Positions 31,856 through 37,330 of a stretch of 64,000 nt of DNA are shown piece after piece. Under the pieces are notes generated by a model. It did not search any database. It was not told the DNA's origin and was given only the letters and a program-made list of their open reading frames with translations. The DNA is taken from positions 62,001 through 126,000 of the forward strand of contig JASBVM010000023.1 of NCBI GenBank assembly GCA_029961055.1, given 5' to 3'. Every line of letters begins with the position of its first letter. Position 1 is the stretch's first letter. A program made the translations under genes and the position numbers. The stretch comes from Bacillota bacterium (GTDB taxonomy: Bacteria; Bacillota; Sulfobacillia; JAIMAT01).

Positions 31856-32539
31856 TCAGCGGTGGCCCGCAGGTCCCCCTCGCTTCCGACCTGGCCGGTC
31901 GCCTGCCGCGCGCGGCCCGATCCCCATCTCCTCCAGCCAGAGCGGGTGCTCCTCGGCGGCGTAGGCGAGGCTGACCGAGCCCGTCTTCATCGCCTCCAGC
32001 GAGCGGCGCGTATACGGGTGGAGCACCGACAGGTAGAAGTGAACGACGAACATGCCGCCCGCCGCGATGAGGCCCACGTCATGCCCGATCACCATCCAGC
32101 GGAAGAGCTCGGGCGAGACCGCGCCGCGGCCGAACCACATCACCAGACCGGTGACGGTGAAGAGGACGAAGGCACCCATCTGGATCCAGAGGTTCAGCTT
32201 CTGGCCGGCGTTGTACCGTCCCTGCGGCGGCAGGTGCCCGCGCGCGGTGGTGTAGAAGGCGGGGCCGGCGACCATCCAGCGGCGGTCCGTCGGAGGCCAG
32301 TGGAACATCTGGTGGAGGTCGGTCAGGAACTCCTTCCTGGCGAAGAGCGGGTAGCTCAGCCCGGCGGCGATCAGCACCAGCGCCGCGATGCGGTGGACGA
32401 GGCGGGTGGCCGGGCCGTTCCAGGGCGCCAGGGCGGGCACGAAGAAGGTGAGCCCCGTGCCCAGGAGGACCAGGAAGGCGCCGGCGTACGTCCAGTGAAA
32501 GGCGCGCTGGAAGGCGCTAAACCTGGGAATCCGGTCCAT
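31856..32539 (-). CDS. fdnI: Formate dehydrogenase cytochrome b subunit (gamma)
   Basis: Membrane subunit that takes electrons from the iron-sulphur subunit and reduces quinone. Four membrane helices are visible, with heme-ligand histidines in FQRAFHWTYAG near residue 15, LVHRIAALVLI near 48, WMVIGHDVGLIAAG and VVHFYLSVLHPYTR. The length of 227 residues matches FdnI/FdoI. The ATG, 9 bases after GGGAGGGG, overlaps the end of the beta-subunit gene by 23 bases. It is the last gene of the fdn operon. Confidence 0.88.
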   Translation of the reverse strand: MDRIPRFSAFQRAFHWTYAGAFLVLLGTGLTFFVPALAPWNGPATRLVHRIAALVLIAAGLSYPLFARKEFLTDLHQMFHWPPTDRRWMVAGPAFYTTARGHLPPQGRYNAGQKLNLWIQMGAFVLFTVTGLVMWFGRGAVSPELFRWMVIGHDVGLIAAGGMFVVHFYLSVLHPYTRRSLEAMKTGSVSLAYAAEEHPLWLEEMGIGPRAAGDRPGRKRGGPAGHR

Positions 32540-33377
32540 GCCGCCCGTCCCCTCCCTTTTCACGCTGTCCAGCCTTCTCGGTCGCTTCTCTCTGGCCGAA
32601 GGAGCGGCTGGCGACGACGAGGTGGGCCAGCGCGCCGACCACGCCCGCGCCCAGGATGACGCGCCCCGCGGGCTGCAGGATCCCCTTCCAGAACGACTGG
32701 GTCGGCGAGACCTGCGGGTCGGCGGGCAGGCCGTAGACCTCGGGCTTCTCCGTCAGGACGAACATGTAGTGCAGGCCGCCCAGCTCCTTCTCGCCGTAGA
32801 GGTTGGCCTGGGCATGCCCTCCCTTCCGGAGTTCGTCCACCCGCTGTCGGCCGTAGCCGACCAGCTCCTCCCGCGGGCCGAAACGGATGGCGTCGGTGGG
32901 GCAGGCGTGGACGCAGGCGGGTTCGAGCCCGTTGGAGATGCGGTCGAAGCAGAAGGTGCACTTGCCGGCCACCTTGGCGGTATCGAAGCTCTGGCGGTCG
33001 ACGTGGACGGCGCCGAAGGGGCAGGCTTCCTCGCAGTAGCCGCAGCCGATGCAGCGGTCGGTCTCCAGCCGGATGGCGCCGCTCGGGTCGTGACGCAGCG
33101 CCTCCACCGGGCAGGCGAGGACGCAGGCCGCCTCGGTGCAGTGCATGCAGCTCATCTTGTTGAAGTGCCAGCGGACCTGGCCGTCCGCCTTCACCTGCTC
33201 GGTGAAGCGGACGACGGTCCAGGTGTGGGCGGTCAGGTCAGGATGACTCTGGTAGCTGCCTTGGAAGCTCGTCTTCTCCGCGGGGAGCTGGTTCCACTCC
33301 TTGCAGGCCACCTCGCAGGCCTTGCAGCCGATGCACTGCGAGACATCGGTCAACATCGCCACTTCCTGCGCCGCCAC
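32517..33377 (-). CDS. fdnH: Formate dehydrogenase iron-sulphur subunit (beta)
   Basis: Electron-transfer subunit with four [4Fe-4S] clusters. Cysteine groups appear in order: CIGCKACEVAC at residues 15-25, CMHCTEAACVLAC near 77-89, CIGCGYCEEAC near 108-118 and CTFCFDRISNGLEPACVHAC near 138-157. A single membrane helix near residues 238-256 anchors it, as in FdnH. The length of 286 residues is normal. It lies 3 bases after fdhE and overlaps fdnI. Confidence 0.9.
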   Translation of the reverse strand: MAAQEVAMLTDVSQCIGCKACEVACKEWNQLPAEKTSFQGSYQSHPDLTAHTWTVVRFTEQVKADGQVRWHFNKMSCMHCTEAACVLACPVEALRHDPSGAIRLETDRCIGCGYCEEACPFGAVHVDRQSFDTAKVAGKCTFCFDRISNGLEPACVHACPTDAIRFGPREELVGYGRQRVDELRKGGHAQANLYGEKELGGLHYMFVLTEKPEVYGLPADPQVSPTQSFWKGILQPAGRVILGAGVVGALAHLVVASRSFGQREATEKAGQREKGGDGRHGPDSQV

Positions 33378-33380
33378 CGG

Positions 33381-34112
33381 CTAGATCCCTCCTTTCGACG
33401 GCTCGGCCTGCGGCAGATCGCTGCCGCCGGCGGGCTCCCAGGGGAGGAGGCCCACCCCCTGGCGGTGGAAGCCCTCGCGTTCGGCCAGGGCGTCGAGGTG
33501 AAGCGTCATCAGGTCCTCGAGCACGCCGTCCACCGGTTGGTCGCCCGCCACCAGGCGGACCTTGGTGTAGGTCCGGCAACGGTGGCAGACGTCCAGACGG
33601 TACCCCTCGACCCCCTCCACCTCGAGGACGCCCAGCGAATCCGGCTCCTCGTGGCCGCAGGCGGCGCAGCGGAAGCGCGGGTACGGCCACTCCGCGCCGC
33701 ACCTGGCGCAGAGGAGGGAGCGGTCCCGGTGCCACTTCCTCTCGCGCAGCACCGCCCAGGCCGCCAACCCGCCGCAGACCGGGCAGCGCGCTTCGTGCCA
33801 CAGCTCGCGGATCAGGTCCCGGTGGGCAAGGGCCGTCCCGCGCAGCTCCGGCAGCCAGCTGGCCCAGGCCAGCGTGTAGCGCCAGCCGGGCCCCTCCGCC
33901 CAGCCCGGTTCGAGTTGGAGAGGAAGCCGCTCGGACGCCCGCTGGACGAGGTGCGCCCGGCGGAGGGAGGTGGCGGGGTCCGCCTCCGCCTCCAGCAGCT
34001 CGATCAGCGGGCGACCCCGGCCCAGCTGCTCGCGGACGAGCCCGGGGTCGAGCGCCCCCGGCGCCGCCTCCTCCCCTTCCGTCACCCAGTCGTAGAGCGC
34101 TCGCAGTTCCAT
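33381..34112 (-). CDS. fdhE: Formate dehydrogenase accessory protein FdhE-like
   Basis: Accessory protein needed for maturation of formate dehydrogenase. The C-terminal half has four CxxC pairs: CPVCGG, CARCG, CAACGH and CHRCRTY, the rubredoxin-like metal site of FdhE; VCHRCRTYTKV is especially typical. The length of 243 residues is shorter than E. coli FdhE (about 309), mainly at the N-terminus. ATG 34112 starts 4 bases after the fdnG stop, with GAGAGGG before it. It sits between the alpha and beta subunit genes rather than after the operon. Confidence 0.82.
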   Translation of the reverse strand: MELRALYDWVTEGEEAAPGALDPGLVREQLGRGRPLIELLEAEADPATSLRRAHLVQRASERLPLQLEPGWAEGPGWRYTLAWASWLPELRGTALAHRDLIRELWHEARCPVCGGLAAWAVLRERKWHRDRSLLCARCGAEWPYPRFRCAACGHEEPDSLGVLEVEGVEGYRLDVCHRCRTYTKVRLVAGDQPVDGVLEDLMTLHLDALAEREGFHRQGVGLLPWEPAGGSDLPQAEPSKGGI

Positions 34113-34116
34113 CGCC

Positions 34117-37100
34117 TCATGCCCTCTCCACACGGCAGAGGCAGGCCTTGGTCTCCTGGATGGAGGCGTTGGGGTCGAGGGCATCGATGGTCACCTCGTT
34201 GGCCGAGGGGCCTTGGTCGAGCCCCGCATACCCCCAGTGCGGCGGCATCCAGATCACCTGCACCGTCCGGCCGTTCACCCGGAGCGGCCGGATCCTGGCC
34301 GTCGGGAGCGCCTTCATGACCACCTGGCCGCGGGCCGTCTCGACCCGCACCCGGTCGCCGGGGCGGACGCCCAGCTCCCGGGCCAGCTCCAGGCTCATCT
34401 CCACGAAGGGTTCGGGCATGATCTCGTTCAGCCACGGGATGTTCCGGGTGATGCCCCCGGAGAGCCAGTGCTCGGTCAGCTGGCCGGTGGTCAGCACCAC
34501 CGGGTAGCGGTCCGGCCTCCCTACCGGCTGCCCGCTGCGGAGCCGCGGGTAGAGGACCGCGGGGTTGACCGAGACCCCCGGGTGAAGCGCGTTGGCGACC
34601 GGGCTCTCCACCGGTTCGTAGAACTCGGGGAAGGGCCCGTCCGCCAGGACGGTGGAGACGTCCCTGGGCGGATCACCCGCCTTGGCTCCCGGATCGGCGT
34701 AAGGCGGGGCCATCAACCGCGCCACGCCCTCGGCGTTCATGCGGAACGCCTTGCGCCCGCCGGGCGAGCCGGGTGCGTCGGTGGCCGCGGTCACGTCGGG
34801 GACGTCGTTCCCGGCCCACTTTCCGGCCGCGGCGTCCCACCAGACCAGGGGCAGCTCCGGCCGGCGGGGGCTCCCGTCGGGGTGGGTGGAGGCGCGGTTG
34901 TAGAGGACGCGCATGTTCCCAGGCCAGCTCCAGGCCCAGTGCGGGTAGTAGTGGAGACCGCCGGGGTCGTAGCTCCGGTCGCGCCGTTTGGTCAGGTTCT
35001 CCCCGCCGGCGTAGAGGCCGGCGTACATCCAGTTGCCGCTGGAGGTGGAGCCGTCGGCCTGGAGGTCGGCGATCCCCTTCACCAGCCTCCCGTCGACGTG
35101 GTATCCGTTGACCTCGCGCAGCACCTGGTCGTAGATCGAGCCCGGGTCGTACCTCCAGTCGGCCTTGAGGATGGGCTCGTCCTTGGGATCGGTGCTGCCG
35201 GCGTAGAGGTCGCGGATGCGCCGGAAGACGGCGTCGATGATCTCCGCGTCGGTCTTCGCCTCGCCCACCGGCCGGACGGCCTGGTAGCGCCACTGGACCC
35301 AGCGGCTCGAGTTGGTCACCGTCCCCTCCTTCTCCAGGAAGGAGGCGGCGGGGAGCAGGATGACCTCGGTCGCGATCTTCGCCGGGTCGGCGCCGGGCCG
35401 CTTCCAGAAAGAGGCGGTCTCGGTCTCGAAGAGGTCGGTGACCACCAGCGTCTCGATCTTCTCCAGCGCCTGACGGGTCAGCTTCACGTTGGCGTTGGAG
35501 ACGGCCGGGTTCTGCCCCATGATCCAGAGGAACTTCAGCTCGCCCTTGAGGGCCGCCTCGAACATGTGGTAGCTCGAGTAGGCCTTCTGCCCCTTGGGCA
35601 GCCAGCCGTAGCCGAAGTCGTTCCCCGGGGTGGCGTTGGGACCGAACCACGCCTTGAGCAGGTTGACCAGGAACTTGCCCCGGAAGGAGCTGTTGTGCTC
35701 GAACCAGGCCTTCAGGTCCTTGTCGGCCGGCGCCGGCGGCTTCAGGTAGCCGGGCAGGTAGTTGTAGGCGACCGCCATGTCGGTGGCGCCCTGGACGTTG
35801 GTCTCGCCGCGCAGCGCGTTCACCCCGCCGCCCGGCACGCCGATGTTCCCCAGGAGCAGCTGGAGAATCGCGTAGGAGCGGATGTTCTGGACGCCCGTCG
35901 TATGCTGGGTGATGCCCAGCGCGTAGAGGATCGTGCCGGGCCGGTGCGTGGCGAACGTCCGCGCGATCTCCTCGATCTTGGCGGCCGGGATGCCGGTGAT
36001 CCGCTCCGCCGTGGCCGGGTCGTAGCGGTCGAAATGCTCCTTCAGCTTGGAGAAGACGGTCCCCTCCGCCTCCAGGCTCTCCGCGACCAGCGGCTTCCCG
36101 TCAGGGCCCAGACGGTAGGCCCACTTCTTGGGGTCGTACTTGTGCGTCTCGGCGTCGTAGCCGGCGAAGAGGCCGCCCTCGAAGCCGTACTCCGGGTTGA
36201 CGAGGAAGCGCGCGTTGGTGAAGTTGGCGACGTACTCCTCGTCGTAGAGCCGGTTCTCCAGGACGTAGCGGATGATGGCACCGATGAAGGCGATGTCCGT
36301 CCCGGGCCGGATCTGCGCGTGCAGGTCGGCGATGGTCGACGTGCGCGTGTAGCGCGGGTCGACGTGGATGACCACCGCGCCGTTGGCCTTGGCCTTCATG
36401 ATGTGGTGCATGGAGAGCGGATGGTTCTCGGCCGCGTTCGAGCCCTCGATCAGGATGACCCGGGCGTGCTCGAGATCCGGCCAGTTGTTGGTCATCGCTC
36501 CCCTGCCGAACGAGGCTCCCAGACCGGGAACCGTGGGGGAGTGTCACAGGCGCGCCTGGTGGTCGATGTAGACGGCCCCCAGGATCCGCGCCATCTTCAC
36601 CCACAGGTACGCTTCCTCGTTGGTCACCAGGGCGGTGCCGAAGAAGCCCATGGCCTCGTTCCGATGGACCGTGTAGACCTGCCCGTCCAGCGTCTCCTGG
36701 GCGATCCAGTACCGGTCGCGGACGTCCTGGATCTTCCGGGCGATCCGGTCGAAGGCCTCCTCCCAGGAGATCGGCTCCCAGCGGTCGGAGCCGGGGGCCC
36801 GCCGGAGCGGCCGGGTGAGTCGCCGGGGCGAGTTGGGGATGACGGAGAGCGAGGAGCCCTTGCTGCAGAGGCCGCCGTCGTTGTTGGGATGCTCGGGATC
36901 GCCCTCGATGTGGACCAGCTTCCCGTCGCGGACGTAGGCGATCAGCCCGCAGCCCACCGAGCAGTAGGTGCAGGTGCTCCAGACCTCCCGCGCCCCGACG
37001 GTGCGAAGACCGGCTGCCGCCGCCCGCACCGGACGCGGGTCGAAGCCGAGCCGAGCCAGCGCCAGGCCGACCCCGGTGGCTGCGGTACCTTTGAGGAACT

Positions 37101-37119
37101 GCCTGCGCGTAACCTCCAA
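34117..37119 (-). CDS. fdnG: Formate dehydrogenase major subunit, selenocysteine-containing
   Basis: Catalytic subunit that oxidises formate at a molybdenum or tungsten bis-MGD site, outside the membrane. TTG starts a Tat signal (TRRQFLKG, then a hydrophobic stretch ending near AAAA), with AAAGGAG 10 bases before. STCTYCSVGCG and GGLCSKG bind the N-terminal [4Fe-4S]. At codon 192 an in-frame TGA falls exactly where E. coli FdnG has selenocysteine (196): [27 protein letters not shown]. The hairpin after it fits a SECIS element. Read through, the protein has 1000 residues and runs to the molybdopterin dinucleotide-binding domain. Calling it two genes or a pseudogene would be wrong. Confidence 0.93.
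36498..36546 (-). promoter_or_regulatory. Bacterial SECIS element after the UGA codon of fdnG
   Basis: The UGA occupies 36546-36544. Downstream, a 7-bp upper stem (36532-36526 with 36520-36514) closes a GGTCT loop, the SelB-binding apical loop type. A lower CTCCCC/GGGGAG stem closes the base. Codon by codon it aligns with the E. coli fdhF element: CAC after UGA, then CGGTT, then GGTCTG at the same distance. Confidence 0.85.
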
Positions 37120-37129
37120 GCTGCGATCG

Positions 37130-37136
37130 CTCCTTT
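37130..37136 (-). promoter_or_regulatory. Ribosome binding site that decides the fdnG start
   Basis: AAAGGAG on the minus strand lies 10 bases before TTG 37119, which puts the twin-arginine motif at residues 5-6. An in-frame GTG just upstream overlaps this site. Confidence 0.5.
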
Positions 37137-37147
37137 CCACTTTCGTG

Positions 37148-37173
37148 CCCTGCGCCGTCGCCGGCGCGCAGGG
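37148..37173 (-). promoter_or_regulatory. Leader hairpin of the fdn operon
   Basis: CCCTGCGCC (37148-37156) pairs with GGCGCGCAGGG (37163-37173) with one bulged base and a 6-base loop. It stands 11 bases before the ribosome site of fdnG and could affect initiation. It does not match a riboswitch I know. Confidence 0.35.
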
Positions 37174-37257
37174 GACTGCAGTCGCTCCTTGCGCTTCCCC
37201 CACCGCGGGCTGATGCGGCGGCTCCCCCCCCTCCCACCACCGCCGCCGGAGTCCAAC

Positions 37258-37330
37258 AGAAAGTTGTGCTTTATAAAACGCGCATAAGAAATGCGACGGC
37301 GGATCGTGTTGAATCTTAATTGGCAGATGG
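37258..37330 (-). promoter_or_regulatory. Probable fdn operon promoter region
   Basis: The 317-base gap between fdnG and the RND gene contains this single AT-rich island in otherwise GC-rich DNA. On the minus strand it has a TATAAA -10-like box (37275-37270), but no convincing -35. A CGCAT-N5-ATGCG inverted repeat (37281-37295) lies next to it and could be an activator site. The rest of the gap holds the leader hairpin and a 26-bp duplication. Confidence 0.4.

Follow-up and report, generated by a model that had tools for sequence, protein, structure and literature searches.

A probable selenocysteine codon in the alpha subunit gene of a formate dehydrogenase-N-type enzyme from a little-known bacterial lineage

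In a 64,000-nucleotide stretch of DNA from a Bacillota bacterium (hereafter the window), the gene for an fdnG/fdhA-type formate dehydrogenase alpha subunit (positions 34117..37119, minus strand) is crossed by an in-frame TGA. Does this codon break the gene, split it in two, or stand for an amino acid, and if so, which one? As set out below, UGA 192 of this FDH-N-type alpha subunit is almost certainly decoded as selenocysteine (Sec), in what would be a Tat-exported, membrane-linked enzyme. The same use of UGA is found in E. coli and in numerous other bacteria.

A formate dehydrogenase-N-type alpha subunit and its operon

The alpha reading frame runs on the minus strand from a TTG at 37119 to a terminal TGA at 34119-34117 and translates into 1000 residues, with the internal TGA at 36546-36544 as codon 192. 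The sequence-only reading had placed the TGA at this codon, directly after the peptide DHQARL, and had seen similarity to FdnG continue on both sides; the translation matches the position, the codon number and the peptides before and after it, and the similarity extends over the whole protein. Specifically, the read-through protein matches TIGR01553 (formate dehydrogenase-N alpha) in one stretch over residues 3-998, with 1028.3 bits against a cut-off of 814.2, and aligns end to end with Desulfovibrio vulgaris FdhA and E. coli FdnG (1kqf), the TGA falling on the Sec/Cys metal-ligand site. PF10518 and PF04879 also score above their cut-offs, and the protein carries a [4Fe-4S] motif (CTYCSVGC..CSKG, with CTYCSVGC at residue 50), C85 and the pair U192-H193. 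The TTG start is backed by a Shine-Dalgarno-like GGAAAGGAG (37130..37138, minus strand) 10 nt upstream, by conservation with a sister species of the same genus (G002) that sets in at that site, and by the Tat signal RRQFLK at residues 5-10. An antisense reading frame of 1024 codons (34213-37287, plus strand) overlies nearly the entire alpha gene; GC-rich codon usage most likely produced it as an artefact.

The genes are ordered alpha-FdhE-beta-gamma, compared with fdnGHI in E. coli, and all lie on the minus strand. The FdhE-like accessory protein (33381..34184) scores above the cut-off for PF24860 and below those of the NCBIfam FdhE models; its start at 34184 overlaps the alpha gene, and the true start may be further downstream. 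The beta subunit, a ferredoxin-like iron-sulfur protein resembling FdnH (32517..33377), matches TIGR01582 with E=1.6e-75, below the curated cut-off, and the FdnI-like cytochrome b gamma subunit (31856..32563) exceeds the cut-off for PF01292 and stays below that for TIGR01583. Because both partners fall under the curated FDH-N cut-offs, in this respect differing from the E. coli system, we use "FDH-N type" as a careful wording for the complex, whose product is predicted to be a Tat-exported enzyme of this type. A fdhD gene is found elsewhere in the genome, and among the seven molybdopterin-domain matches in the genome an internal TGA occurs only in the window gene.

A comparison with the E. coli FdnG system shows that the two share alpha subunit length, the Tat signal, the iron-sulfur motif, a Sec-His pair at the metal site, the place of the UGA, the distance to the SECIS hairpin, and homologous beta and gamma partners. 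The best full-length PDB match to the alpha subunit is the Sec-containing FdhA of D. vulgaris (9qm0, 8cm4 and others), with which it has the active-site segment HQAR-(Sec/Cys)-HSPTVP in common. D. vulgaris FdhA is a soluble periplasmic tungsten enzyme, whereas in the window the alpha subunit comes with a gene for a cytochrome b subunit.

A conserved SECIS hairpin follows the UGA

Downstream of the UGA lies a hairpin, GGUUCCC-GGUCU-GGGAGCC (36514..36532, minus strand), whose 7-bp stem encloses a 5-nt loop starting 18 nt past the UGA. Every UGA-containing homolog read from the class has a GGUCU loop 18 nt downstream; in E. coli, GGUCU stands at that spacing in fdhF, and AGUCU takes its place in fdnG. 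In the window all seven base pairs can form continuously, whereas both E. coli stems fold with an interruption. Among 16 distinct homologs, pairing holds in 86.6% of stem cells, compared with 69.7% for shuffles and 33-46% (maximum 46.4%) for slid controls, and stem covariation is 0.451 against 0.141 in shuffles, a value reached by none of 500, with both sides changed in four of the seven stem pairs; the pair counting left out near-duplicates, two homologs with a 6-nt loop (L049 and L082), E. coli fdhF (L076) and a Desulfobacterales homolog (L024), omissions that favour the SECIS structure somewhat. L024 is without a GGUCU hairpin at the 18-nt spacing.

Codon choice at the site is also distinctive. 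The loop glycine is encoded by GGT, a codon rare in the alpha gene (7 of 92 glycine codons), and GGT stands at this place in all 11 UGA-containing homologs tested, in most of which it is a minority codon. Synonymous recoding of the window peptide yields both loop and stem in only 0.8% of trials, and codons 192-218 carry no substitution between the window's genome (G000) and G002, though the two genes differ at about 28% of their codons overall. In folding energy, however, the SECIS region does not fall below shuffled sequence (z 0.37 and -0.49); since this measure failed to single out the element, we relied on covariation, codon choice and spacing.

Two sister species, G001 and G002, encode another UGA-containing formate dehydrogenase (L049 and L082, respectively), 50% identical to that of the window, in which the loop is one base longer (GGUCUU). 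No copy of this second type was seen in G000.

The genome encodes a complete selenocysteine machinery

The sequence-only reading had made its case depend on sel genes elsewhere in the genome, and a family-by-family search of G000 (2.28 Mb, 96% complete) finds tRNA-Sec, selA, selB and selD all present. The tRNA-Sec on contig C17, with a UCA anticodon, scores 76.9 bits against a gathering score of 47 and is the single strong match in the genome. The selA gene (580 bits, cut-off 268) lies on the window's own contig, about 15 kb past the window end; selB (316 bits, cut-off 242), with SelB-wing_2 and wing_3 domains, is on C1, and selD (334 bits, cut-off 125) is on C51. The selD gene itself carries an in-frame TGA in ECAG-U-ASK (L018:1528), where SelD usually carries Sec, followed by a hairpin, CAGGUCC-GGC-GGACCUG, so that the genome would encode at least two selenoproteins. 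On C51, selD adjoins a Tpx-like peroxiredoxin reading frame. Taken together, the evidence indicates that the organism uses selenium. Together with the E. coli-type loop and spacing of the SECIS, the complete machinery lends support to the selenocysteine that had been proposed at this codon.

Could the UGA instead be read as tryptophan or cysteine, either because the code has changed generally or because a suppressor tRNA is at work? Two further genomes of the class have tRNA-Sec-like tRNAs with a Cys anticodon, which would speak for such a reading, yet the strong tRNA-Sec match of G000 has the UCA anticodon and is accompanied by selA, selB and selD, and a general code change would need no conserved hairpin. 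Moreover, the alpha gene's own terminal stop is a UGA; with TGA still serving as a stop here and the Sec machinery encoded in the genome, we reject a general code change and regard a tryptophan or cysteine reading of either kind as very improbable.

The UGA is conserved across the class

A close alpha homolog occurs in 19 of the 154 genomes of the class, 16 with UGA and three (G006, G026 and G047) with a cysteine codon at the site; homologs from Bacillaceae, Desulfobacterales and E. coli likewise have TGA at this position. A wider genome scan for relatives returned three useful homologs, the rest being distant molybdoenzymes. These data bear directly on whether the TGA arose through an error in sequencing or through recent nonsense mutation, leaving the alpha gene a pseudogene, a reading that has in its favour the presence of the stop codon and otherwise nothing. 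The independent presence of the TGA in 16 genomes rules out a sequencing error for practical purposes. The sister species G002 encodes a 90% identical alpha protein with TGA at the same place, and substitutions between G000 and G002 number 12/6/42 at codon positions 1/2/3 before the TGA and 49/44/161 after it, a third-position bias on both sides which argues that both halves are under coding constraint. Apart from codon 192 and the terminal TGA, there is no stop or frameshift in the 1000 codons. With the TGA conserved in independent assemblies, we reject an error or pseudogene, whose probability we consider minute. Equally negligible is a split into a short N-terminal protein and a second protein starting at ATG 36495: a standard-code ORF finder gives such pieces, but the break would separate the Fe4S4 domain, together with the beginning of the molybdopterin domain, from the remainder, and homologs of the class with cysteine (L052, L056) are single chains.

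Decoding of the UGA as selenocysteine also agrees with how the machinery is distributed, G020 and G047 being the exceptions. In the 16 class genomes with a UGA-containing gene, selA scores above its cut-off in all and tRNA-Sec is found at E<=1e-9 in 15, the one without a match at this threshold being G020, a draft of about 250 contigs. Among the genomes with cysteine at the site, neither selA nor tRNA-Sec is above threshold in G006 and G026, and G047 has kept both. This pattern, in which UGA goes with the machinery and cysteine, in two of three genomes, with its loss, is in line with the Sec-to-Cys conversions known for FdhA (PMC1794560). The cysteine homolog of G026 (L052, codon TGT) has kept the loop GGUCU with a 5-bp stem, a hint that cysteine replaced selenocysteine after the SECIS had evolved, the hairpin possibly being a relic; the GGUCU loop is absent from the cysteine homologs L056 and L058.

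A Symbiobacterium-type genome of the same class (G023), which we take to be S. thermophilum, has tRNA-Sec, selA and two UGA-containing FdhA homologs 47-48% identical to the window's alpha subunit, and more selenoprotein formate dehydrogenase copies than G000. The lineage of the window probably lies near Symbiobacterium. For S. thermophilum, 12 selenoproteins have been reported, including three FdhA and SelD (PMC1794560).

Proposed decoding and electron transfer

By analogy with the known families, SelA would make selenocysteine on tRNA-Sec using selenophosphate from SelD, and SelB with the charged Sec-tRNA-Sec would bind the hairpin after the UGA, such that selenocysteine is delivered instead of termination. 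Sec192 would then ligate the Mo or W of a bis-pyranopterin cofactor beside His193. The sulfuration factor would likely be FdhD, and electrons would pass from the alpha subunit via the beta subunit and the cytochrome b gamma subunit to the quinone pool. It is conceivable, if improbable, that SECIS recognition in this lineage differs slightly from that of E. coli, given the continuous stem and the larger loop of the G001 and G002 paralogs, and that selenocysteine and cysteine decoding are perhaps connected in members with Cys-anticodon tRNA-Sec-like tRNAs.

Given the whole Sec toolkit in the genome, the alpha gene is intact and nothing unusual for its type, and its annotation should be that of a single selenoprotein of 1000 residues. 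No bacterial selenoprotein is more widespread than FdhA (PMC13188914); the window gene therefore extends a familiar group and brings no new principle. On sequence grounds it is a textbook example of a selenoprotein, from a lineage about which little is known, and our analysis found no departure from the known mechanism.

Two genomes of the class, G143 and G003, each have a normal tRNA-Sec and, in addition, a second tRNA-Sec-like gene with a GCA (Cys) anticodon, located at L105:1497-1591 (minus strand; ARAGORN) in G143 and at about 1501-1597 of L104 (minus strand; read by eye) in G003. Both tRNAs resemble the selC* tRNA-Cys class described previously (PMC7609411).
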